64,000 nucleotides of DNA from Sordariomycetes sp. S80-01Y (Eukaryota; Ascomycota; Sordariomycetes): the NCBI GenBank assembly GCA_037042185.1, contig JAXQJY010000026.1, positions 682,001 through 746,000 of the forward strand. The letters are read 5' to 3'. The notes below the pieces were generated by a model. That model was not told the origin of the DNA. It was given only the letters and a program-made list of their open reading frames with translations, and did no database searches. Both the position numbers and the translations under genes were made by a program. Shown in pieces: positions 8,157 to 59,972 of the stretch (the stretch's first letter is position 1; each line of letters opens with the position of its first letter).

Positions 8157-8906
8157 TCACTTTGTCGTAAAGACCTTGTCGTTGCTGAGGAAGTCGTCGA
8201 TATTTCGCTTCCTTATTTCACTGAGGGGCTTGACTTCGTCTTCCTCTTTCTTCACCCCAGCTGCCTCTGGTAGGGTGCCCACACGCCCGGCGACGCGGAC
8301 AAGCAGCGTGCGCATCTTGTCCAGCTCCTTTTCGAGCTCGCCGTTGCGCGTGATGAGGTTCTCCTGTATCCCGACTCCTCCTTCCTTGGTTTGCAGAGGC
8401 TCGATCGTAGTCTTTACTCGCCGCAGGCGCTCAACCCGTTGCTTCACCTCATTTCGTTCTTCGTTGAGGGTCTTGAGGCGGTCAGTCGCTTCGGCGAAGC
8501 GCTTCGCCTCCATAGGATGGTTCGTAACATCCTTTTCAACCGGCCAGACCGCAGGCAAGTTCTCAATCGTCCTCGGGTCGACCAAGTCAACCTCCTTTCC
8601 GATCCCTTCCCCTCCTTCTGCGTCCCTTTCGAGCTTCCTCTCCGCCTCGAGATTGTAACCCTCGTTGATCTGCTCCGCCAAAGCGCGATTTGCCTGTGGG
8701 GCGTATGTTCTTCTGCAATGATCCTGCACGAGCTGTTCGACAACTTGCGTTACGACGGCGAGAACGCGTGGGTCGAGTGGTGAGTCGGACTGTTCGTTGG
8801 AGGCGCGGAAGGTTGACGAAGGGTGCGGGGGCCGGGCGAGGAGGGTCGTCTGGGCACTTATGAAGCGCTCTTTGAGTTGGGTGACCGTTGGTGGCCCGGA
8901 AGACAT
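8157..8906 (-). CDS. FTA4: Kinetochore Sim4-complex subunit Fta4
   Basis: A single-exon gene of 249 aa. Its start, TVTQLKERFISAQTTLL then PSSTFRASNE, and the following segment ending in APQANRALAEQINEGY match my memory of the fungal Fta4 family. Fta4 is a subunit of the Sim4/COMA-type (CCAN) inner kinetochore, the complex that links CENP-A chromatin to outer kinetochore proteins. The central and C-terminal parts (about residues 130-215) are rich in charged heptad-like helices (RLKTLNEERNEVKQRVERL), consistent with coiled-coil assembly. It ends in an acidic/basic tail, RKRNIDDFLSNDKVF. The gene is probably a constitutive housekeeping locus unrelated in function to the neighbouring P450. The family call rests on recall and not on a search. 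Confidence 0.75.
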   Translation of the reverse strand: MSSGPPTVTQLKERFISAQTTLLARPPHPSSTFRASNEQSDSPLDPRVLAVVTQVVEQLVQDHCRRTYAPQANRALAEQINEGYNLEAERKLERDAEGGEGIGKEVDLVDPRTIENLPAVWPVEKDVTNHPMEAKRFAEATDRLKTLNEERNEVKQRVERLRRVKTTIEPLQTKEGGVGIQENLITRNGELEKELDKMRTLLVRVAGRVGTLPEAAGVKKEEDEVKPLSEIRKRNIDDFLSNDKVFTTK

Positions 8907-9860
8907 TCTGGCGAGATTGGAAAGCTGTGGCGGTGGAGGATTGGTGAGGTGAGGTTGGTGTTTGCACAGACGCGTTCGGGGCGCGTTTGCCGGTCGTGGG
9001 GTTGATGGCAGCGTCCTCCAGAGGGCTCACTCCCTAGCGGGGGGTGATGTCAGTACCACCTCAGCTCCACTTGGCTCTTGTAAACAGATGTCCTCGCTCT
9101 GTTAATCCACAAAAAGCCTGCACAAAAGTCTGATCGAATTATTTCTCATGGTCTTGTTGGCTGGCTATGATCCTCTACTAGACGCCGTGACGTTGAGCCT
9201 GGCAAGTGTTTCGCAATTGGCTGGGGTTTCTCCCATACACTCCGTCACTCCATCCCAGAGTTGGATGGGTGCTTGCCCGGTTGATGGAGCGTTGGTTATG
9301 CAGCAAAACGCCTGCTCCAGCTGCTCTGATTGACTTCTCGTCTGGAGCTGCGCCGTGATGGAAGCGGGCGCGGAGTGGGTAAGAATCTGCAGCAGATCTC
9401 CGGGTCGAGTGGACGGAACACACCAAAGAAAGAGAGCTGAGCAATCGTGGCAGGCCAAACAGGGTTTCAACAGCCAAGAGAAGACGAATCAGTACTAAAA
9501 AGCCGGATCGAGCAAAACGTGGCTATGAAGAAACTAATCGAAGCGGGAGCGGCTGGGCGCGCGTCGAGTCTCAGACTAGGGCCCGGCCTGCCCCGACCTG
9601 CATGCCGTTTGTGAAACCATGGAGATTCGGATAACATAAATGACCTTGAGTGGAGGCTAAGGCGGCCATGCGCTAATGTCATTGAAATACAGCGGCTACT
9701 GTCATATTTGAAGGGGCGTGAACTGACCAGCAAAATGTGTTCTGGGCAAGCACTTGGGCAAGGAAGGGCATGAAGCAGACTTCAAAACTACTGCGACAGC
9801 ATGGAGGGCTGTATGGAGTGACAAGAGCTGTTTCATTAAACAAGAAGACATATGATGATC
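8907..9860. other. Intergenic region upstream of FTA4
   Basis: About 950 bp between the FTA4 start and the 3' end of the next minus-strand gene. ORFs here are short (at most about 100 aa) and overlap on both strands. No motif or repeat stands out; it should hold the FTA4 promoter. Confidence 0.5.
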
Positions 9861-10784
9861 TCAGTTCTTGGTAACCTCGCCCTGTGTAAAATCTACCAAG
9901 TACTTTCCAACAGTCTTATCGATGAGCGGCACCGCGATGCCCTGCGTCACGGCCTGGCAGGCCAGCATCGACCCTGCGACAGCAATGAAATTGCTTATTC
10001 CCCAGTTGTCACCAGCGGACATATTGCCAGCGCTAACATTGCTTACGCCGTTAAGCGCGTTCATGAGCGCGCCCTGGGGAACGACCTGGGCCATCTCAAA
10101 GCGTTTCTAATACCGGTATTAGCGTTGTCACTTGCTCTGCCATGGGAGGGCGATGAATTACAGTAAACGGGGTACGGGACTTGGGGTGGTAGACGATGAA
10201 TCTCTCCGAGGATGGCTTCTTCTTGTCGTCTAAATTGTTATTCAGTACGCCGTATTGCCAATCCGGGTTGACCCTTATCCAGGGCGGCTTGATATCAACT
10301 AAATAACGCGTGTAAGCTTGTTTGCGCTTTACATGTTCTAGCATCGGATATCTCCTCGGTACATACTATTTGTGTTGGCGCGGTTCTGCACCGTTTTGGA
10401 TTGACTATTCGCCTCCTCGAGACACGCTTCGTCCTTACGAGTTGCAGAGCCCAAATGCAGCGGCACACGGCCACTCAAGCTGGGCAGCACTAGCTCTGCG
10501 GCAATGTAGACGAGAACCTCTGGGTTACTGGTCGCACTCAAGTTAAACCCGTAACCGCGCACGTACTCAGCCGTGCGGGGCGAGCTGTCCTGAGTCCAGC
10601 CGATGGTGACGCGCGCGCAATCAGTCAAAGCTGGTAGCACAATATAGTCGCCCATCTTGACGTTGATGTTTGGGAGGTTGGGATTCAACACTTGCCCGGT
10701 AGCATTCTGGGCAAGTACATTTGGGTTAGCCATAAAGCTGGGTGAGACTTTGGTAGTTTGGCTGGCATTTTGGCCTGATGACAT
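9861..10784 (-). CDS. Unrecognised small-protein family, member A (266 aa)
   Basis: Exons on the minus strand are 10784-10367, 10298-10162 and 10106-9861. The intron at 10107-10161 is firm. The one at 10299-10366 (GTATGT donor, TTTAG acceptor, CTTAC branch) is my preferred choice; a GTAAGG donor at about 10437 with a CTAG acceptor is an alternative. I do not recognise the family. It aligns by eye with the neighbouring members B and C: an N-terminal half with ARVTIGWTQDSS, then NPEVLVYIAAE, a middle VNPDWQYG, the core SSERFIVYHPKSRTPF and, just after a phase-0 intron, KRFEMA. Its C-terminal tail is longer and more hydrophobic (ISNFIAVAGSMLACQAVTQ) than in B and C. There is no signal peptide. 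A TATA-like element lies about 135 bp upstream. Confidence 0.7.
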
Positions 10785-11675
10785 GATGGGCGATGTAGAA
10801 TGAGAAACTTTGGCGTGTAAAAGGTAAAGTTGCCGGTTGAAACTTGATGGATGCAAATAATTGATATTATGGCATCGTGCTATCAAGAGATCCGGTACCT
10901 GCTGTCTCCCGCCAAAGATATATAACAAATTCAACATATCTCAGCCCATCAATAAAACTACTACCATACATTCCAGCTACCCCGCCCAATGACACTCTGA
11001 CAATCAGTTCTAGACCCTTGTATTCAGCTGACCAAAGTAAATAGTCTCGGTATCGCCGAATCGGGGCTGCTGGTCTCGCAATGAATCAACGTTTATAGAC
11101 TGTTGTTGGTGGGGACGGAGGTGTGACGCGTAGTTGGCTTAAGCCAAAAGGACCTCGTGTACATGTTCTTCCCCATTGAGTCACAGCACCCCTTTGACCC
11201 ATGCCGCTGATTGCTTGCGTTATGCTAGTTTTGTGCCAGGCTGAATCACGCTCATTAATAGTAGGTGCCCTCGAACCAATATTAGATACAAAGATGTAGT
11301 GGCTAACGCCAACCGTGGCGAATGGGCTCGTCTTTAGCGCCGCAGATGTGACAGGAGTGCGGGGGTATAGAGATCTCGGGAACACCCGCACCGCTGAGGA
11401 ACTAGAGGGAGTCCCCCATACGTACACACTCCCCCTTACACTGGTTCGCAATAGAGTACATTCATCGTTCTCCGAAGTATTTTCGTGCTTACATTTTTAC
11501 AGCTTCAGTTGCTCGCCTGTTACCAGCAAATATCATTGTTTTGACTTGTTTAACGATACCACGAGTGGTACCTGGCTCTAATTCAGAACTATGGATATAT
11601 ACAAACCAGCGTCTCACACCACGCTGGATGTGAAAGTTAATATGACCGTCAGTCTAGGCAGACAGGCCTGAACGG
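10785..11675. other. Intergenic region between members A and B
   Basis: Upstream region of member A and 3' flank of member B, both minus. A TATATAT read on the minus strand at 10918-10924 may serve member A. A 121-aa minus ORF at 11086-11451 and an opposing 88-aa ORF lack any family features and are not called. Confidence 0.5.
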
Positions 11676-12324
11676 CTAGAACTTCTTCAACTCATCACCG
11701 AACTTGGAAGTAATGAGGCCAGCTACCACCTTAAACTCTTCCTTACCCCGGCTAGCCGCGCCAGTAACTATGTCGCCAGCCTTGTTTGCAACCTGGATCT
11801 TCTTGTTTGACGCAAAGCGGTGCTACAATGTTTCATCAGCTTTGACTTTCAGTGAATTCAGATTTTGGAGACAAGGCCTACCTGGAAGATGTTGTTGGAG
11901 GGGTCATGCAGGACAAGGAACCGGTTCTTGCCTTCGGCGTCCTGACCATACCTGAACTTATCGTTCACCTTGAACGAGTACACGCTGCCATCGTCGACTA
12001 GCTGCGAGGCTGATTTGAAAACATCCACATATTTGCTGGCAATAAAAAGCCGTCCAGGGTCGTTGTCTAAATTTGTGCATTGTATCAGCTGCTATGAAAA
12101 CGTTCCACTCCATCGCGTGGTAGAAGTAGCTTACTCCTCGTGGCGTTGCTGAAGGTCACGGCGTAGTATGTATCGGTCTTCTTAGTGCCCCAGTTCTGCG
12201 ACCACTCCACGAGCACAGGCTCCAGTGTGAGAGTTGCAGCAGTGACGCGAAGGTCGTCGTTTAGCTCTACCGGGACAGTGGAAGCAGGCATAGGAACATC
12301 GGCAGGACGCTTTGGGGTAGCCAT
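11676..12324 (-). CDS. Unrecognised small-protein family, member B (173 aa)
   Basis: Exons on the minus strand are 12324-12135, 12066-11882 and 11822-11676, with introns at 12067-12134 (phase 1) and 11823-11881 (phase 0), all with good donors and acceptors. This is the cleanest copy of the family. An N-terminal proline-rich leader is followed by a strand-rich domain (VTAATLTLEPVLVEWSQNWG, then TYYAVTFSNAT), then DPGRLFIASKYVDVFKSASQ, RYGQDAEGKNRFLVLHDPSN, NIFQ, and after the last intron HRFASNKK, ending GDELKKF. Member C shares DVFKS, YGQ..EGK.RFLVLHD, QHRF and GDEL.. F, and both introns at matching places. No signal peptide, membrane helix or catalytic motif is apparent; it is probably cytosolic. 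Function unknown. Confidence 0.85.
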
Positions 12325-13258
12325 GATTTCAAATCAGGAGATGGTGCGCTGGACGTCAGAATGGTTTGTAGTTGATATGGGAGTTGAAGTGGTGATCGCT
12401 TGGTATGGGGGCAGGCGGGAGTTTAAATACTGGATAAATGTTTGAAGACAACAAGTCTTTTCGTTTGTACTTGACATTCGACCTCGGTTTCCATCTTCAT
12501 GTTGCCTCGGCGGCCCCCGACAATGCCAACAGCGGCTGAGTAACAGCACCCACCCCGATGGAGAGCTTCAGCTCGATTCTAACGGTAAAGTGTCCGGGAT
12601 CGTTCAATAGTCTAGTGAAAGTCCATCGAAACGTTGAATACACAAAAGAGGACCGAGTTCTGGGCCCACCCAACGTGGCATTTATTACTAGTAGCAAGCC
12701 ATGCATGCGCGCCAAGCGCTACCGAATCAATAGTGGTTCAGCCCTGTTTGGCCACAGTGCAGTGCACCCTTGTATAACTTATAACTCTACACTCACGGCG
12801 TGGTAATGGGGATACTCGGTCACTACTATTTCGCATCGGAAACCCGCCTAACATTGCCTCGATAATGTAGAAGATAACTGTAGGAACTGTTCAGATTTTG
12901 TCAAAACTTTCGCGTATATTTTTCTCGCCTTTTCTTTGCGTGAGGATTGACGGTTAGACGTATATTATGGGGTACAGTGGCACAGGAAGTAGAGGGCCCC
13001 GAGTCTAGAACCATCAAGGGGTGCATCGACCTGGCATGAGGTGCGCGCCGAATACATCACGCTGCGTGTGAATAGGCTCGGCCCGCTGCTGCGGCTGGGA
13101 ACCGTATAGGGACAATCCCGTATGAGAACAACGTGGCGCTCTAGGTACTGCTGGCGGTTTCCTTTTTAGGCACATGGTGAATCAATCCTATTTGAAAACC
13201 TCTTGCGCAAGTTTGCTCGCATTGCAAGACGTGCAACACCTCCTCTCCAAGCTTCAAG
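12325..13258. promoter_or_regulatory. Divergent promoter region of members B and C
   Basis: 934 bp between the ATGs of two paralogues transcribed away from each other, so shared regulation is likely. A TATTTAAA on the minus strand (12422-12429) sits about 100 bp upstream of B. The 82-aa plus ORF at 12558-12806 and the 72-aa minus ORF opposite it look accidental. Confidence 0.5.
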
Positions 13259-14016
13259 ATGAATGTAAGAGTTCCTTTCCCTCCAGGAAACCCGTTTGAT
13301 ATTGATATACTTACCGCTATGTTCAGCCCGTAAAAGAATCCGATATCTGCGAATTCCCAGCGTGGGCCCTGGGGCCAAAGGCGAGGGTGCTGGACATTGT
13401 TTGGCAGCAAGACATGGAATCATGCAAAGAGCCCTACACTTTGATTCTTGTCGACTACCTAGTTCTAGGTATGAACCCCCTCTGAATTCCAATGTTGCAA
13501 TACTATTCGCAGTCAACTAAAATGAATTCGCCCGTTCAAGGGTCTGGCACCGAAACCAAAAATGGGAGAGCTCGGCTCTTCGTTGCACAAGATAGGCTGG
13601 ACGTATTCAAATCAACGCTGTCAAGTAGCACCGCCGACGGCATCGAAACGCGCAAATTTACAGTTACCCAAGACTTTCTCTACGGACAGGCAAATCCCGA
13701 AGGCAAGGACCGCTTCCTCGTTCTCCATGACAAGGAGCGCAACCCATACCAGGTATGTGCAAACCCGAGCAGAGTAATGAGCTCACAGCGGGTCACTGAT
13801 CTATTCTCTCCTTGACAGCATCGCTTCGTACCCTCACAGTACGTCAAGTTTGGCGAAGGATCGCTGAAGAAATTGAAGAAGGCTGGCTTCGGCTCCGAAA
13901 CACTTGATTTGGTCGGCGAGCACGCAAAGGCTGTTGTTGGTGATGAGCTGAGGGACTTTTCCGGCAAAGCTCGACCGTCCGCCGGACTTTCAGGGCTACT
14001 AGAGCTGTTTGATTAA
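13259..14016 (+). CDS. Unrecognised small-protein family, member C (185 aa)
   Basis: Proposed exons are 13259-13264, 13327-13468, 13541-13752 and 13819-14016. The last two are firm. The first two rest on splice signals (GTAAGA donor with CTTAC branch; GTATGA donor with CAAG acceptor) and on homology: the second exon encodes ARVLDIVWQQDMESCKEPYT, which matches VLVEWSQNWG in member B. The first coding exon would be only ATG AAT; a simpler alternative begins at the ATG at 13522 and lacks the N-terminal domain. Shared blocks with B are RARLFVAQDRLDVFKS, LYGQANPEGKDRFLVLHD, YQ|HRF (phase-0 intron at |) and GDELRDF near the end. No signal peptide or known catalytic motif. Function unknown. It is divergent from B and lies about 1 kb upstream of the giant gene on the same strand. 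Confidence 0.7.
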
Positions 14017-14986: not shown

Positions 14987-17900
14987 ATGACCTCCACTTT
15001 ACCCAGGAGCGTCCCCGAGGAAGATCCATGGGACGCCTTGGAGAAGAAACTAGATCGTCTTCTTGACGGGAAAACCCCAGATTCAGAAAGTCTGGTCAAG
15101 GTCCAGGCTGTGCCGAGACCGACATCAAAGAAAGTACAAGGATTCACTCCTTGGAAAGATGAACAGACTTACTTCAATGACCCGCTGTTCGTGGGTGTTG
15201 GCCCTGTTGTCGAAGAGCCAGAATTCGTGGAGCTAAAGATCCAAGACAAGATCTCCATGGTCGACTTCTTTCCCGAATTCAAGAATGGAGCCTTTCAGGA
15301 CTTGGCTTTGGAGAACTTCCTGCTGCAATGGTACGACAAGAAGATTGGCCAGGAGGAGCCAGGCCTGTATCTTCGCATGGATATCAGGTTGGGAGGAATA
15401 CTCAATAGCGTCCTGGAGATCTTTGAGTCGTTCATCTCCGAATCTGATATCCTAATCCGCCTGTCTGCTCACGTTGGGTTCACTCTCGACGCTGCGGACG
15501 GCTTCAAGTTTAAGCAATTGACTTTCGCGGGCGCTCTCGAGGGCGTCGTCGTTTGCTATCCAGTTGGGATTCCAGTCCTCACGATATATTCTGCTGGTGT
15601 GCGCGTGGCATTTAAGAATCTCAAGGCAGACGTCGCAGAAGGTCAGTCCACACCGGGTTCCCAGGCCAGTTCGGGATCAAACCCGAACAAAAGGTGGACA
15701 GAGGAAATGGCCAAGTCAACAACTCTCTTGGACAAGGGCACCGGAAGCTTGGATAACCCCGCCGGCCCAATTACAAATCAGGCCAACGCAACGCCTGCTG
15801 CTGTGAAAGATACTTCGCAGAGCGCGTTCCGCGCGGAGGTCTTTGGCGATGTGAAGCTTAGTCTTCCGGGAGATATCCTTCCGCTTTCTCTACAGTATAC
15901 AGCTTCAATCTCGGGAGATTTGATTCACCTAGATATGGTCTTGCGGCGTGGAGAAGTATGGATTTGTCCACTTGGGGTGGAGGGTGTTACGTTGATGGAT
16001 CTACTCATCACAGCGGACATCTCAACCACCAAGACCGACAAGGGCAAGACGCAAATGACGAAGGGCGGAGACTTGGACGAAGGCTTTGGGTGCAAGTTCA
16101 GTGGATCTTGGGCCTATCATACTCGACGCATCATTCTCGGCGGAGAACTATATTCCGCTGCGCAGACGCAAAAGGTGTCCTTCATCGAGGGAACCATGGA
16201 GAAGGTTACGTTTGAAGACATTAAGGAACTCGCCAAATCGGTGCACAAGCATGAGATTCAGAAGCCAGAACGGAACATGGAGTTTGAAACAATGACGCTT
16301 CGCATCGAGGCCGGCAAGCTTTCGGTCATCGGTGCGATGAAACTCGACGGTGCATGGGCACAAGTGAATATATGGGTCAGCAAAGAGGGACTCAGAGTAA
16401 CCGGCTCTATGTTACAATGGCCACTTGACAATGGCATCGTCATTAAGGCAGTCAGTCTCGACTTCGTCATCGGCAAAAGAAAGAAGGGAGATGTTTCAGA
16501 TCCTTTCGGAGGCCCTGCTAAGCTCGAGGGCGGGAAGGACCTGGAAGGAGAAGATAGCGAGCCCAAGAAGAGCGAAGGTAACAAGGATCAAGATAAAAAG
16601 ACTTCAGATGGCAAGTCGACTCAACCGCCAAAGCCCAGAGCCAGCACGGATCCAGGTTTCGATGCGTCGGCCAAGGCGGAAGCCAAGGCAAACGAAGCCA
16701 GAGCCGCAGTTCCTGCCAAAGAAGCAGCCAGAGATACAGACGAAAGTCCAGTTGCCAAAAAGGAACCACCTCCAGGTGAAGTCACATGGTTTATCGGATT
16801 GCGAGTGTATGGAGACGTGGTTGTTCCGATTGGCGAGAAGGAGTCGACGGCTCCTGATGCAGACTACAAGCTGCGGATTCGCGTCACAGCGTCCTTCACC
16901 TACACGGACAAGGGTGAATGGGAGCTCTTAGCGGCAGGGAAAGCTCGTACGACTGTCTCGCTCAGGGACTTCTTCCCAAACGCCATCGAGAAAGGTGGCT
17001 TCTTCGATGCTCAGTTGTCGGATTTTACTATATTCGGCACAAATATGGCTGAAGCGTATTTGCCTCCAGATATTTTCCGCCACAAGATCACTAAGGGCTA
17101 GTCTTCAGTTTCACCCTTTTGACTACAAGCATACTGACTCCTGCTAGGTTTCTACATCTCTGCCATCTTAGATCGAGTGCCGGGCTTGGAAGACGGCAAG
17201 ACTGAGCCCAAGGCTCTCAAGAAAGCCACCGCGGCGGATCGCGCGTACCTAAAAATAGGCTACAATGCTGGGCAGAAGATCCCCAAAGTTGCCGTCTTTC
17301 TCCCTCCCAGCTTCAAGGTAAGGCTTAGTTCAAAATTGTGCCGATACTTGTCTGACTGACACCCTTCAGATTGACTTTGGCGAGCGCTTCTATACGGGCG
17401 CAATTTATCTAGAGATCGACCCAGAGAGCAAGCCTATCCTCAAATTCTTTGGAGAATTGTACATGCGGATGGAGGAAGGCCGTGAAGAGCCGTTGAAACT
17501 CACCCTTGAGCTTGGGGTAGATGCCGTCACGGGGAGTCTAGGCTTGCTTATGGAGAAAGCCGATGGCATCCGTAACCCCTTAGGCCTCGGCAACAGTGTC
17601 AAGCTCTACCGTCTTGGAGGTTCCATCTCAGTCAAATGGCCTGTATTCCTTTCGTCAGGCACCATAGATACTTTTGGTATCACGGTGTCTATCGGAATCA
17701 ACCAAGACAGGTACGACGCGACGCTCGTCATGGGTCCTAACCCAGCCAACACGCTGATTCAATTTGTCGCACCGAAGCTGGACATGGGGCAAATTGCTGG
17801 TTTCATCGTCTCAGCTCTAGACAAGGAGTTTGATGCTCCGAAGGGCAACGTTATTAGTTTCCATGGGGTTGACATCTACAGCAGCGCTGGAATAACGTAT

Positions 17901-19835
17901 CTGGGCGTCTTCTATCCGAGAGGAATCCGGTTCAAAGGAGAAGTCCGCATCTTCGAGTGGTCCGCTGCCATGGACGCCGAGCTCTCAACAATGGGATTTA
18001 CATTCAAGTCTAAAATGAAGAACTTCAGGCTCGGGCCTCTTGTTGTCCGCGGCGCAAACCCCGAGGAAGAGGGAGCTGTGCTGGACGTGGAGCTGACTCT
18101 CGTGCGTCAAATGTTTCGCTTGAGCGGGATGATTCAGATTTTCGACTCATGGGTACTGGCAGACATTCACTGCCAGTTGATGCCGAAGAAGATATTCTAC
18201 TTCAACTTCGAGCTCTTCTGGTCTGCTGGTTTGTACATTAAAGTCAAGGCCGAGATGATCTCGGCCAACACGGCTGATGACCCCAAGGCGGCAGACTGGA
18301 GACTGGAGGCCACGATCCAGCAGACCATTGTGGCGCAGGTCAAAGAGGCAATAATAAAGACCATCGATGTGACGCATGAGGCTATGAAGAAAGGCATTGG
18401 CGCCGCTATCAAGGCCGTGGACGACGCCGAAGCTGAATACAAGCGCCAGTGCGAGGCCGCAAAAGCCGCGGTGGACAATCTGATCAAAGAGAACGACGTC
18501 AAGGTTCAAGCGCTGCAGAAATCGATTGCGGAGGCCATTGTAAACCTGGAGCGCGTCAAGTCTGACAATGGGAGACAAAGATCGGCGGCAGACGTCAACT
18601 TCAACTCTGAGATCAGCAATGCAGAGAAGGAGCGGGCTCTAAAGCTGGAGCCGTATAATTCAAATCACCAGAGGGCTTCTAGGGACATGAATCAAGCCAA
18701 CTCTGAGCAGCCGTGGAATGTGGAGGAGGCCAGGAGGAAACGCGACGAAGCGCGCGGAGAGTTCATGAGGGTGTTTGGAGATGCAGAGCGGAAGCTTCAG
18801 AGTGCTATCGATGACGTTGCGGGAGCACAGCGTACGTATTCTGTACAGGACCTGCGAATACCCTTCACTAATGTGTTGCACAGGTGTGGTGGATAGCCTT
18901 GATGGCGAAGTCGCAAACTACGATTCCCGATGCTCCAGCGAGTGGTGGCGTGCTGATCTGGTAAGCACTCACCTACAGAACAACATTGTCCCGGGCTTAG
19001 CTAACAATTCCAGCACGCCGTTCGTGGCATTCTCCGCGGCGAGCTGGCCATTGCCAAGTTGGCTCTAATGGGCGTCGAAGCCCTTCTCCGCGGAGCCCGA
19101 GACACCCTTCAATCTGATGCTTTCAGAACGCTGAAGCAAGCTATGAATTCAGCAGCGGAGTCCCTCACTTCCATTATTGATGGCTTCAAAGCGCGTATCG
19201 CATCCCTCCAGTACATGATCGACCAAACCTTCAAAGAACTGCAGGCGGCCGTGCAGGATGGCAATCTCCAGTTCGACCGCCTGAAACAGGCGGCGCAGAA
19301 TGTCCGCGACAAGATAAACGAAGAGCTTGCACGGCAGGAACGAGAGTCGCAGGCTCGCTCCGACCTGTTGAGCCTTCAGCTCAAGGAGACGGGCGTTTTC
19401 TTCCAGTCAAGTGCATACATGACCGCCAAGACCGGCCTCGACTTTGCTCAGAACAACAACTTCGCCCTCATCGCCGCCAAAAAAACGCTTGAGGGCTTCC
19501 AGAAGGTTGATGAGGCGGCGTACCAAGCTGTCCGCGGTTTCGTCGTCGATGCGCTTGACTCTCTGGTGGATGTCCAACTGATCCATTTCAGGGGCGAGAT
19601 CAAGGCCAACAAGGATGACCAAAAGCCACTTACGCTCATCATTGGAGGGACAATGGGCAAGGACCAGAGGTTTTTGTTTGCTGTGCAGTGGATGCCCGGC
19701 CAAACGGTAGCTTTGCTTGCCGAACTGGGGAAGCGCGCTGTGGGAGTCATCACAGGTACGTATTCGGCAAGTTCGCTAGAGGAGGCGTTGAAGCTTGAGT
19801 TCAAAGATTTCAAGCCGATGGCTGTGAAGCAGTAG
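14987..19835 (+). CDS. Giant unrecognised protein, beta-rich with C-terminal coiled coils (1546 aa)
   Basis: Exons are 14987-17096, 17148-17317, 17370-18831, 18884-18960 and 19014-19835; the reading frame is continuous across all joins. The first intron (17097-17147) needs a GC donor (AAGG|GCTAGT) and gives KITKGFYISAILDRV. I recognise no family. Residues 1-500 and 600-1080 are long runs of alternating hydrophobic strands, for example MRIDIRL-type and KLSVIGAMKLDGAWAQVNIW, as in extended beta-sheet or groove-forming proteins. They are divided by a charged, low-complexity linker (about 497-598, rich in K, E, D, A). About 1090-1247 and 1274-1402 are helical and highly charged (AEYKRQCEAAKAAVDN, NEELARQERESQARSD), probable coiled coils. 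A compact tail (1403-1546) follows. There is no signal peptide or catalytic motif. It sits next to the three-member small family, suggesting but not proving a shared role. Confidence 0.85.
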
Positions 19836-56800: not shown

Positions 56801-57163
56801 AGGCACCCCTCTCTTTTTTGGCCAATCACTTCCCAGGAAACAGCCCATCTCGCACGGCCAGAGTGGGCGACAGCCTCGCTAGAGGGAAAGAGGGTCCCTA
56901 GCACCTCCCTCGTCCGCTCCCCAGCCTTACCTCGTCTGCCTCTGGGCTCTTTCTCTGCCTGCCTGTGCTTCGCCGACTCGTCTTCCCGTCCCTTAATTCC
57001 CTCTCATCGACCCATTTCCCCTTTTCTTCTCCCACGCCAATTCCACCTGTCAACCTCTTCTGTCATCTCTGCTTTCGTCCATCGTCAATCAGCGATTCGT
57101 CTCTTCCTCTGCTTCCGTTCCCTTTTATGTTGCTGTCATTGCCTCGTTCCCCGCCTTCTGTCC
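53859..57163. other. Gene-poor divergent region, 3.3 kb
   Basis: This lies between two divergent genes. No supported ORF. The last 250 bases before 57164 are strongly pyrimidine-rich (CT runs at about 56905-57130), typical of fungal promoters with long leaders. No repeat of note. Confidence 0.5.
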
Positions 57164-59972
57164 ATGGAACCGTCCACCAAAAGACGAAAGCTGGCCCCAA
57201 AGGTCGCTACGCCCACCGAATCGATCCCATCGCCTGTCCAGCACGTCCACGAGCCGGTATGTCGTTTTTCTAAAAGTTTTTCACCTCCTGGCAGCTTTGC
57301 GTTCGACTGCCATTGCGATTGACTTCGCTAACAACAGTACCTTTCAGCCGCATTACCCGGTCCTGGAACCCCCCATCGCCGAACGCCATGATTTCGAAAC
57401 CTTTGCCCGGCATCTCCAGGATGCAGCCATGCTCATACAACGACAGACGGAGCTTCCGCAATATTCTGATGTCTCCGTCCTCATGCTGCGATGGGAAGGC
57501 GACGAGTCCCAAGACGACGATTTAGTAGCACTCGACAAGCTCTTCAATACGGTATACCATTTCCACACGCAACGCTGGCAGATTCCGAATTGCGCAAATC
57601 CGAGCGTCAAGCTCGGCGTGCAGATCGCCGCTTTCCTTGACAACCCACGCCCAGACCATCTCCTGATAGTATACTACGCCGGTCACGGCTTCGTAGGACC
57701 CGACAAGCATCTATATTGGGCGAGGTGAGTAGGCCGAGTCTGAAAAGCGTCTTGCTTGCAATCTGGCCATGGGGGGCTGACTCTTCATAGCAACATGCGT
57801 GATGATTCGGCAAAGCTGAAGTGGGATGGGGTGCGATGTCTTTTTGAGGATGCTCAATCGGACATGCTTCTGTTGTTGGACACCTGCGCCATCCCTGACC
57901 CAGCTGCCTCTGGAAACAATGGCATCAAGGAAGTCATTGCGGCTTGCACCCCCGACCATTCTCGCATTCAAGGCCGCTCATTCACTTCGCAGCTGGTAGA
58001 GATTTTTCACAAGCTTAGCGGCCAGCGGTCCTTCGACACACAACGGCTGTATGATGAGATACTAGCTTTGCAGCATCATCAAATCCGACAAGGCCCACCG
58101 CCGCCGCCGACAGTCAATGGGGCACCTCACGCCAAACTACCTCTTTTCTTTCCCATCACCCCTGCAAAGAGTCAGCACCTCACCCTTGCACCGGCTACTC
58201 GACGATCACCCCTCACGCCATCACATAACGGGACAGATCTTGAGGTAAAGAAGAACCCCACTATCGAAGAGCAACTCATCGAGCCGGAAGCTGTGGCGGA
58301 GATAAAGTTCGAGGAGGCTCGCATCCTCGTGTGCACAACTTATGTAGGGGATGCGAGTGCGGATATGTCCTATTTCCATAACTGGCTGCAAAACACCCCG
58401 TCTATGGGGGCTAAAGTTACGGTCGAGGGCATGTTTTTGGGGCCTCCCACGATGCTTCTCATCTCGATGCCTCACTCGCTATGGAGGGTGATAGAGCATG
58501 ACAAGGTCTGCTGCTACCTGGGCAACATCACGTCGCACAACATGCTCCATCTCTACCAGCGACTTGTCGGGCCTTCAGGACCGAAACCATCCCCGAGGGA
58601 AGTCGAGGACGGGCGAATTCTTCTAGAAGCGAGGAGGGCCGCGGCTGTTCCTGTTCCTCCCACTCCGGTCAGCTCAGGTGGCGACCCACGAGAGTTTCCA
58701 GCTCCAGGGCGCGAGCATCCACGTGTTGACTTGCCCAAGATTCCGCCGCCCACCCCGCCAACTGGACGAGGGCCCTACATCAGTCCAAGCGCCTCTGGTC
58801 CTCTCAAGCGCGATAGGGAGCACGAGGGATCAGCGGAGATGCGAGAGGCGGCGGAACAGCTCAAGGCACTTAGTCACGTTCGACACCGAAGCGACGAGAC
58901 CGGGCAGACTGGGCGTCCGCGAACAAGCTTGCCAAACGGCATTCTTCCTGCCGATGGTCAGCGTGACGATCCCAATGGCTCGCCAAAGGCAAAGTCCCCC
59001 CCGAACCGGGTGAAGGTCCCTCGCCACGCCCTGCCGAAGAATGAGACGATTTGCAACCACTGCAGTCACACCCCTTTCCGGGACTCATCATCGCTTCGCA
59101 AGCACATTGCTGCTGCGCATACCCGACCGTTTCCTTGCGCCTTCTCTTTTGCGGGTTGCAATAGCACTTTCGGCTCAAAGAACGAGTGGAAGCGCCACAT
59201 TACCTCCCAGCATCTATGCTTGCAGTACTACCGCTGTTCCGCTTGTCCGCAAAGCGCGATCGAGGGGAAGGGGAATGAGTTCAACAGAAAGGACCTTTTC
59301 ACTCAACACCTCCGGCGGATGCATGCACCCTTCCAGATCAAGCGTCCAGCATCAAAGAACGACAGCAAGATGCAGTCCGAGTGGGAAATCCAGGTGAAGC
59401 AACTGCAGGAGTCTTGCTTAGTCACTCGTCGACAGCCACCCCAACGTGCGGCTTGCCCCAAGCCAGATTGCCAACATACATTCGAGGGACACTCCGCCTG
59501 GGATGAGTGGACTGAGCACGTTGGGCGACATATGGAGAAGGGCGAAGCTAATAACTTGCCGGTCGATCGCAACCTCATCGATTGGGCCCTTAGAGAATCC
59601 ATCATTGAGTCTAAGCAAGATGGCGAGTACCGGCTTTGCTACAACAACGGGCCTAGCGGCGGTGGCAGCAGTGGCGGCTCGAACGGACACAACGCTGGAG
59701 CAGAAGGCTCATCATTCATGGAAGTCAAAGAACCCATCTCCCGAGTGACCACGATAGCTGGTGCTCGTCCGGCTGAGCTGTCGCCTCCTTCGTCGGCCAC
59801 AGTCCCTTACGAGTCGCCGAAGAGAGATGCGGCAGTGCCGGCGACCGCAGCTGAGGCAGAATCTGAGCCAAGTGGGGAGCATTCGGTTAGAGAAGAGCCA
59901 CAGCGCGATGAGGGCAAGCCACTTCCGACTTCAGCCAAGCGGGAAACCGATGCGATGGATATCGACAAATGA
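57164..59972 (+). CDS. Caspase-like domain fused to C2H2 zinc fingers
   Basis: Exons are 57164-57256, 57348-57724 and 57791-59972, giving 883 aa. After a basic start (MEPSTKRRKLAPK, a likely nuclear signal) comes a caspase-like (peptidase C14 type) domain at about 45-260. Strand-rich DVSVLMLRWEGDES leads to LLIVYYAGHGFVG with the putative catalytic His144, and DMLLLLDTCAIPD supplies Cys189. Before the fingers, a Pro/Ser-rich linker (about 385-570) contains PKIPPPTPPTGRGP and a second KR-rich patch. C2H2 units start at Cys578 (CNHC...HIAAAH), then CAFSFAGCN...HITSQH, CSAC...HLRRMH and CPKPDCQ...HVGRH ending near 737; spacing is irregular. The tail is acidic and ends DAMDIDK. I infer a nuclear protein coupling DNA or RNA binding to protease-like activity or to a dead caspase fold. 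Which of these holds is unknown. Confidence 0.85.

Follow-up and report, generated by a model that had tools for sequence, protein, structure and literature searches.

Fungal immunomodulatory proteins (FIPs; PF09259, Fve) have an FNIII/Ig-like fold with an N-terminal dimerisation helix. These proteins, the LOR/Tubby-like proteins (PF04525) and the lineage-restricted, or orphan, fungal families are the described systems to which we compare the locus presented here. The window, a stretch of 64,000 nucleotides that corresponds to positions 682001-746000 of C9, one of 16 contigs that make up a 30.87-Mb genome, carries a block at 9861-14016 with three intron-bearing genes, designated A, B and C. 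Gene A (9861..10784, minus strand) encodes 266 aa in a spliced model with exons at 10784-10367, 10298-10162 and 10106-9861, separated by GT..AG introns of 68 and 55 nt in phases 1 and 0, and its GC content per codon position is 0.52/0.43/0.65. Gene B (11676..12324, minus strand) encodes 173 aa in a spliced model with exons at 12324-12135, 12066-11882 and 11822-11676, again with intron phases 1 and 0. Gene C (13259..14016, plus strand) encodes 185 aa in a spliced model of four exons, 13259-13264, 13327-13468, 13541-13752 and 13819-14016, with intron phases 0, 1 and 0. C has one intron more than A and B, after codon 2, and its most doubtful stretch is the 6-nt first exon. The seven introns of the three genes are 55-72 nt long with GT..AG ends, and five of them contain a YTRAY branch-like word.

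The sequences leave no doubt that B and C are paralogues, and their homology spans most of either protein. Compared by blastp they give E 4e-19 with 37% identity over 123 of their 173 and 185 aa, and a profile of either scores the other at 55.0 bits, where the best of 3000 shuffles reached 5.7 and 7.9. Protein B contains the motifs RLFIASKYVDVFKS, YGQDAEGKNRFLVLHD and GDELKKF, protein C contains RLFVAQDRLDVFKS, YGQANPEGKDRFLVLHD and GDELRDF, and protein A contains SSERFIVYHP. The last intron of all three genes is a phase-0, GT..AG intron immediately 5′ of the codons for [HK]RF. In A this intron lies at 10161-10107 (minus strand, 55 nt) between ...RTPFT and KRFEM..., with a CTAAT branch-like word that starts 16 nt upstream of the intron end; in B it lies at 11881-11823 (minus strand, 59 nt) between ...NNIFQ and HRFAS...; and in C at 13753-13818 (plus strand, 66 nt) between ...RNPYQ and HRFVP.... 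An earlier, sequence-only reading of this DNA had placed a phase-0 intron directly before [HK]RF in each gene, which was borne out at the same aligned site of the core, and the coordinates and motifs that it quoted for A, B and C proved exact when checked on the sequence and the spliced models. Each gene also has an upstream phase-1 intron; when B and C are aligned, their sites differ by about 6 residues, and that of A has no alignable position relative to the other two.

A six-frame protein search of the whole genome yielded no loci besides these three when A, B and C served as queries. B and C recovered each other in this search (E 5e-8 to 2e-9), A recovered neither of them and neither recovered A, so members as distant as A could escape detection. 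At the DNA level, a degenerate pattern covering peptides like RF[LI]V[LY]H[DP] occurs at eight sites in the genome: A, B and C account for three, and the remaining five have no family context. When a profile built from the A, B and C exons themselves was run on the six-frame ORFs of the window and its 50-kb flanks, it found those exons only, with the next ORF at E 1.4. The proposal that the block is an old local expansion fits the divergence of the three genes, their common phase-0 intron and the lack of copies detected elsewhere in the genome; the accompanying proposal, selection for a common fold, is conjecture.

We also searched for relatives outside the genome. None of the three proteins matched Pfam at E 10, with filters that discard most weak matches, or NCBIfam and PHROGs at E 1. 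Among PDB sequences, B gave matches at E 0.58 and 0.84 (OutS) and the A/B/C alignment gave one at E 0.24 (TnmK2), while A and C gave none; we read E values of 0.24-0.84 as chance and dropped OutS and TnmK2 as relatives. No relative was found in viral contigs with the A/B/C alignment, C or B, in prokaryote genome contigs with the alignment, in plasmids with C and B, or in phages with C; A entered the searches of the viral and genome contigs, as part of the alignment. A literature search gave no match for five peptide strings of the family. The sequence-only reading could assign no known family, and the profile, PDB-sequence and collection searches all agree.

Downstream, C adjoins a large gene (14987..19835, plus strand) of five exons and 1546 aa. 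By eye, the first two thirds of its protein look beta-rich, and residues ~1100-1450 look helical and coiled-coil-like. The exons scanned gave nothing over cut-off in Pfam or NCBIfam; the weak matches were to a tape measure protein (PF20155, E 7e-5, below its cut-off) and, in PHROGs, at E 0.0018 at best. The first intron of the model, at 17097-17147, is a non-canonical GC..AG intron, and the one GT alternative tried by hand led to a stop. Either a base error or a defect in the frame is possible at this site. Parts of the large protein found no relative in viral contigs (two parts) or plasmids (one part), and a match of one part to bacterial locus L023, in a frame that we take to be carbamoyltransferase-like, was treated as chance. 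The literature gave no match for DUF6603.

On the other side of the block, an ORF at 8157-9026 gave a match to FTA4, a kinetochore family, and two ORFs for P450s and one for an RPE65-type oxygenase are also present. The FTA4 match and the short introns of the modelled genes are in keeping with a filamentous ascomycete. We considered a biosynthetic cluster and dropped the idea because none of the eight flank ORFs scanned, a subset of those present, matched a synthase and because FTA4 lies between. Further away, upstream of the window, very large ORFs with DUF3638, DUF3645 and DUF6606, the largest of these eight, span L035:4840-9999 and L036:3-2720 (C9:about 666840-674720), and some kilobases past them an ORF at L036:6038-8176 encodes a ubiquitin carboxyl-terminal hydrolase that also carries UBA and zf-UBP domains. 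Within the window, two long ORFs (243 and 742 aa) follow each other at 56997-59972 and have no Pfam match over cut-off; the 742-aa ORF matches zf-TRAF at E 0.045 and has C2H2-zinc-finger-like spacing by eye, and the 243-aa ORF has no Pfam match at E 0.01.

Gene A is a probable, remote third member of the family that would have only the core in common with B and C. The B+C profile scored spliced A at 12.8 bits, a value reached by none of 3000 shuffles (best 7.7), the C-only profile scored it at 11.9 bits against a best shuffle of 5.8, and the core piece of A, chosen after the match had been seen, scored 16.0 bits against 6.2. By blastp, A matches C at E 3e-5 over 49 aa in a tiny search space, A adjoins the other two genes, and independent support for its membership comes from its phase-0 intron, which occupies the same aligned site. 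These observations weigh against the alternative that B and C alone are paralogues and that the core match and intron site of an unrelated A are coincidental, which we consider unlikely. That alternative draws on the remainder of A, as only a core of ~50 residues can be aligned with B and C: the N-terminal 140 residues (1.3 bits, reached by 33 of 3000 shuffles) and the C-terminal 80 residues (-2.5 bits, reached by 1878 of 3000) score at chance level, and no whole-length homology to B and C was found by this comparison. It also draws on the 1.1 bits that A obtains with the B-only profile, which 46 of 3000 shuffles equalled, and on the E of 0.02-0.03 between A and B by blastp, again in a tiny search space. 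Among 2865 six-frame ORFs in 114 kb, the B+C profile, made without A, ranked the unspliced exon-2 frame of A (E 0.34) directly below six frames of B and C and ahead of the next unrelated ORF (E 2.1); with the C-only profile, this frame (E 0.82) stood beside an unrelated ORF at E 1.1 and was not set apart. The earlier claim of three paralogues therefore stands firmly for B and C and holds with probability for A through its core and intron, but does not extend to the outer parts of A. A different objection is that the three gene models are artefacts of prediction or stand for genes in decay. The 6-nt first exon that C requires would fit this, as would a raised TpA/ApT index (0.94 in A, 0.94 in the A-B spacer and 1.07 in B, versus 0.63 for the window). 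However, the second and composite indices of repeat-induced point mutation do not reach their usual levels in any of these stretches, the spliced models have GT..AG introns and open frames of 266, 173 and 185 aa, GC at third positions is 0.58-0.66 in the genes versus 0.47-0.50 in intergenic DNA, and B and C are conserved at the protein level. Decay or artefact is thus extremely improbable.

Two other explanations concern what the block belongs to. In the first, the large gene and the block would make up a single functional module, with proteins A, B and C acting in support of the large protein. This gene lies immediately next to the block, all four genes are without a family assignment, and a 385-aa middle part of the large protein recovers only itself in the genome. 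Against such a module, the large protein is not similar to any of the three small ones (best E 0.83), and the DNA upstream of A, B/C and the large gene has no common word of 8-11 bases, a weak test given that shuffled DNA shares 0.37 words on average at 8 bases. We find the module quite unlikely, and its fullest form, a new fungal family with its own fold whose members are interchangeable small subunits of the 1546-aa protein in an undescribed four-gene module, very unlikely. The three proteins might instead belong, as strongly diverged members, to a known superfamily of small beta domains, such as the FIPs (Ig/FNIII-like) or Tubby/LOR-type barrels. The lead here is B, in which the spacing NWG..YG..DP.(S/T)NN.F looks by eye like that of what we take to be a FIP sequence. 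The word NWG is absent from A and C, however, and the Pfam search at E 10 and the PDB matches described above offer no such relative, even allowing for the weak matches that the Pfam filters remove. A PF09259 profile found nothing in the genome, though its control was silent too, and the genome's matches to LOR (PF04525) are on contig C10, away from the block. Descent from one of these superfamilies is therefore improbable in our judgment.

We favor, at about an even chance, the reading that A, B and C are a small family that arose by local duplication at this site, that has no recognized relatives in the collections searched and that consists of cytosolic binding proteins. After duplication, the partners or the expression of A, B and C would have diverged. 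Each protein would perhaps have a beta-rich core with the motif YG..(spacer)..RF[LI]V.H[DP], followed by a C-terminal part. By eye, this part of B and C has the look of a charged helix with GDEL[KR].F at its end; in an amphipathic-helix scan, the top windows of B and C lie away from this end. AlphaFold2, run on C with the translated introns kept and a 3-row alignment, gave a mean pLDDT of 33.5 with 229 of 229 residues below 50. No hydrophobic, signal-peptide-like N-terminus was found (best 19-residue hydropathy 0.18 in A, 0.68 in B and 0.83 in C), so the three proteins probably stay in the cytosol, A less surely. Residues 226-244 of A are fairly hydrophobic (hydropathy 1.55), and contact of A with a membrane through them is possible. 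We speculate that A, B and C are not enzymes but small proteins that bind a ligand or a protein partner, a role proposed from two features, their small size and the absence of an enzyme family match. The beta-rich core, the C-terminal helix, the cytosolic location and the binding role are all things that we infer, and the data point weakly to a function as small cytosolic binding proteins.

Judged from their sequences, A, B and C form what looks like a genuine family, small and local, with two certain paralogues and one probable one and with no known relatives in the collections searched. As a phenomenon the block is ordinary, one among many orphan families, and of modest interest. Its value is as a well-delimited set of three gene models with a common intron, suited to a profile search of fungal proteomes; should other fungi prove to have it, fungal annotation would gain one small unassigned family and a large unassigned neighbor. 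Compared with the FIPs, the proteins are similarly small, their N-termini are likewise not signal-peptide-like and B has the spacing described above, but none of the three matches the PF09259 profile, A and C are without NWG, and the family has a C-terminal extension relative to what we take to be the length of a FIP. The likeness to the LOR/Tubby-like proteins is an impression of the strand pattern of A, B and C; it is set against the lack of a profile match in any of the three and the position of the genome's LOR matches on another contig. A, B and C may also be compared with the orphan fungal families, for which they are a candidate, with relatives sought in viral, prokaryote, plasmid and phage collections. 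They resemble those families in consisting of a few diverged, adjoining paralogues with no Pfam domain, detected at one site in the genome by our searches.
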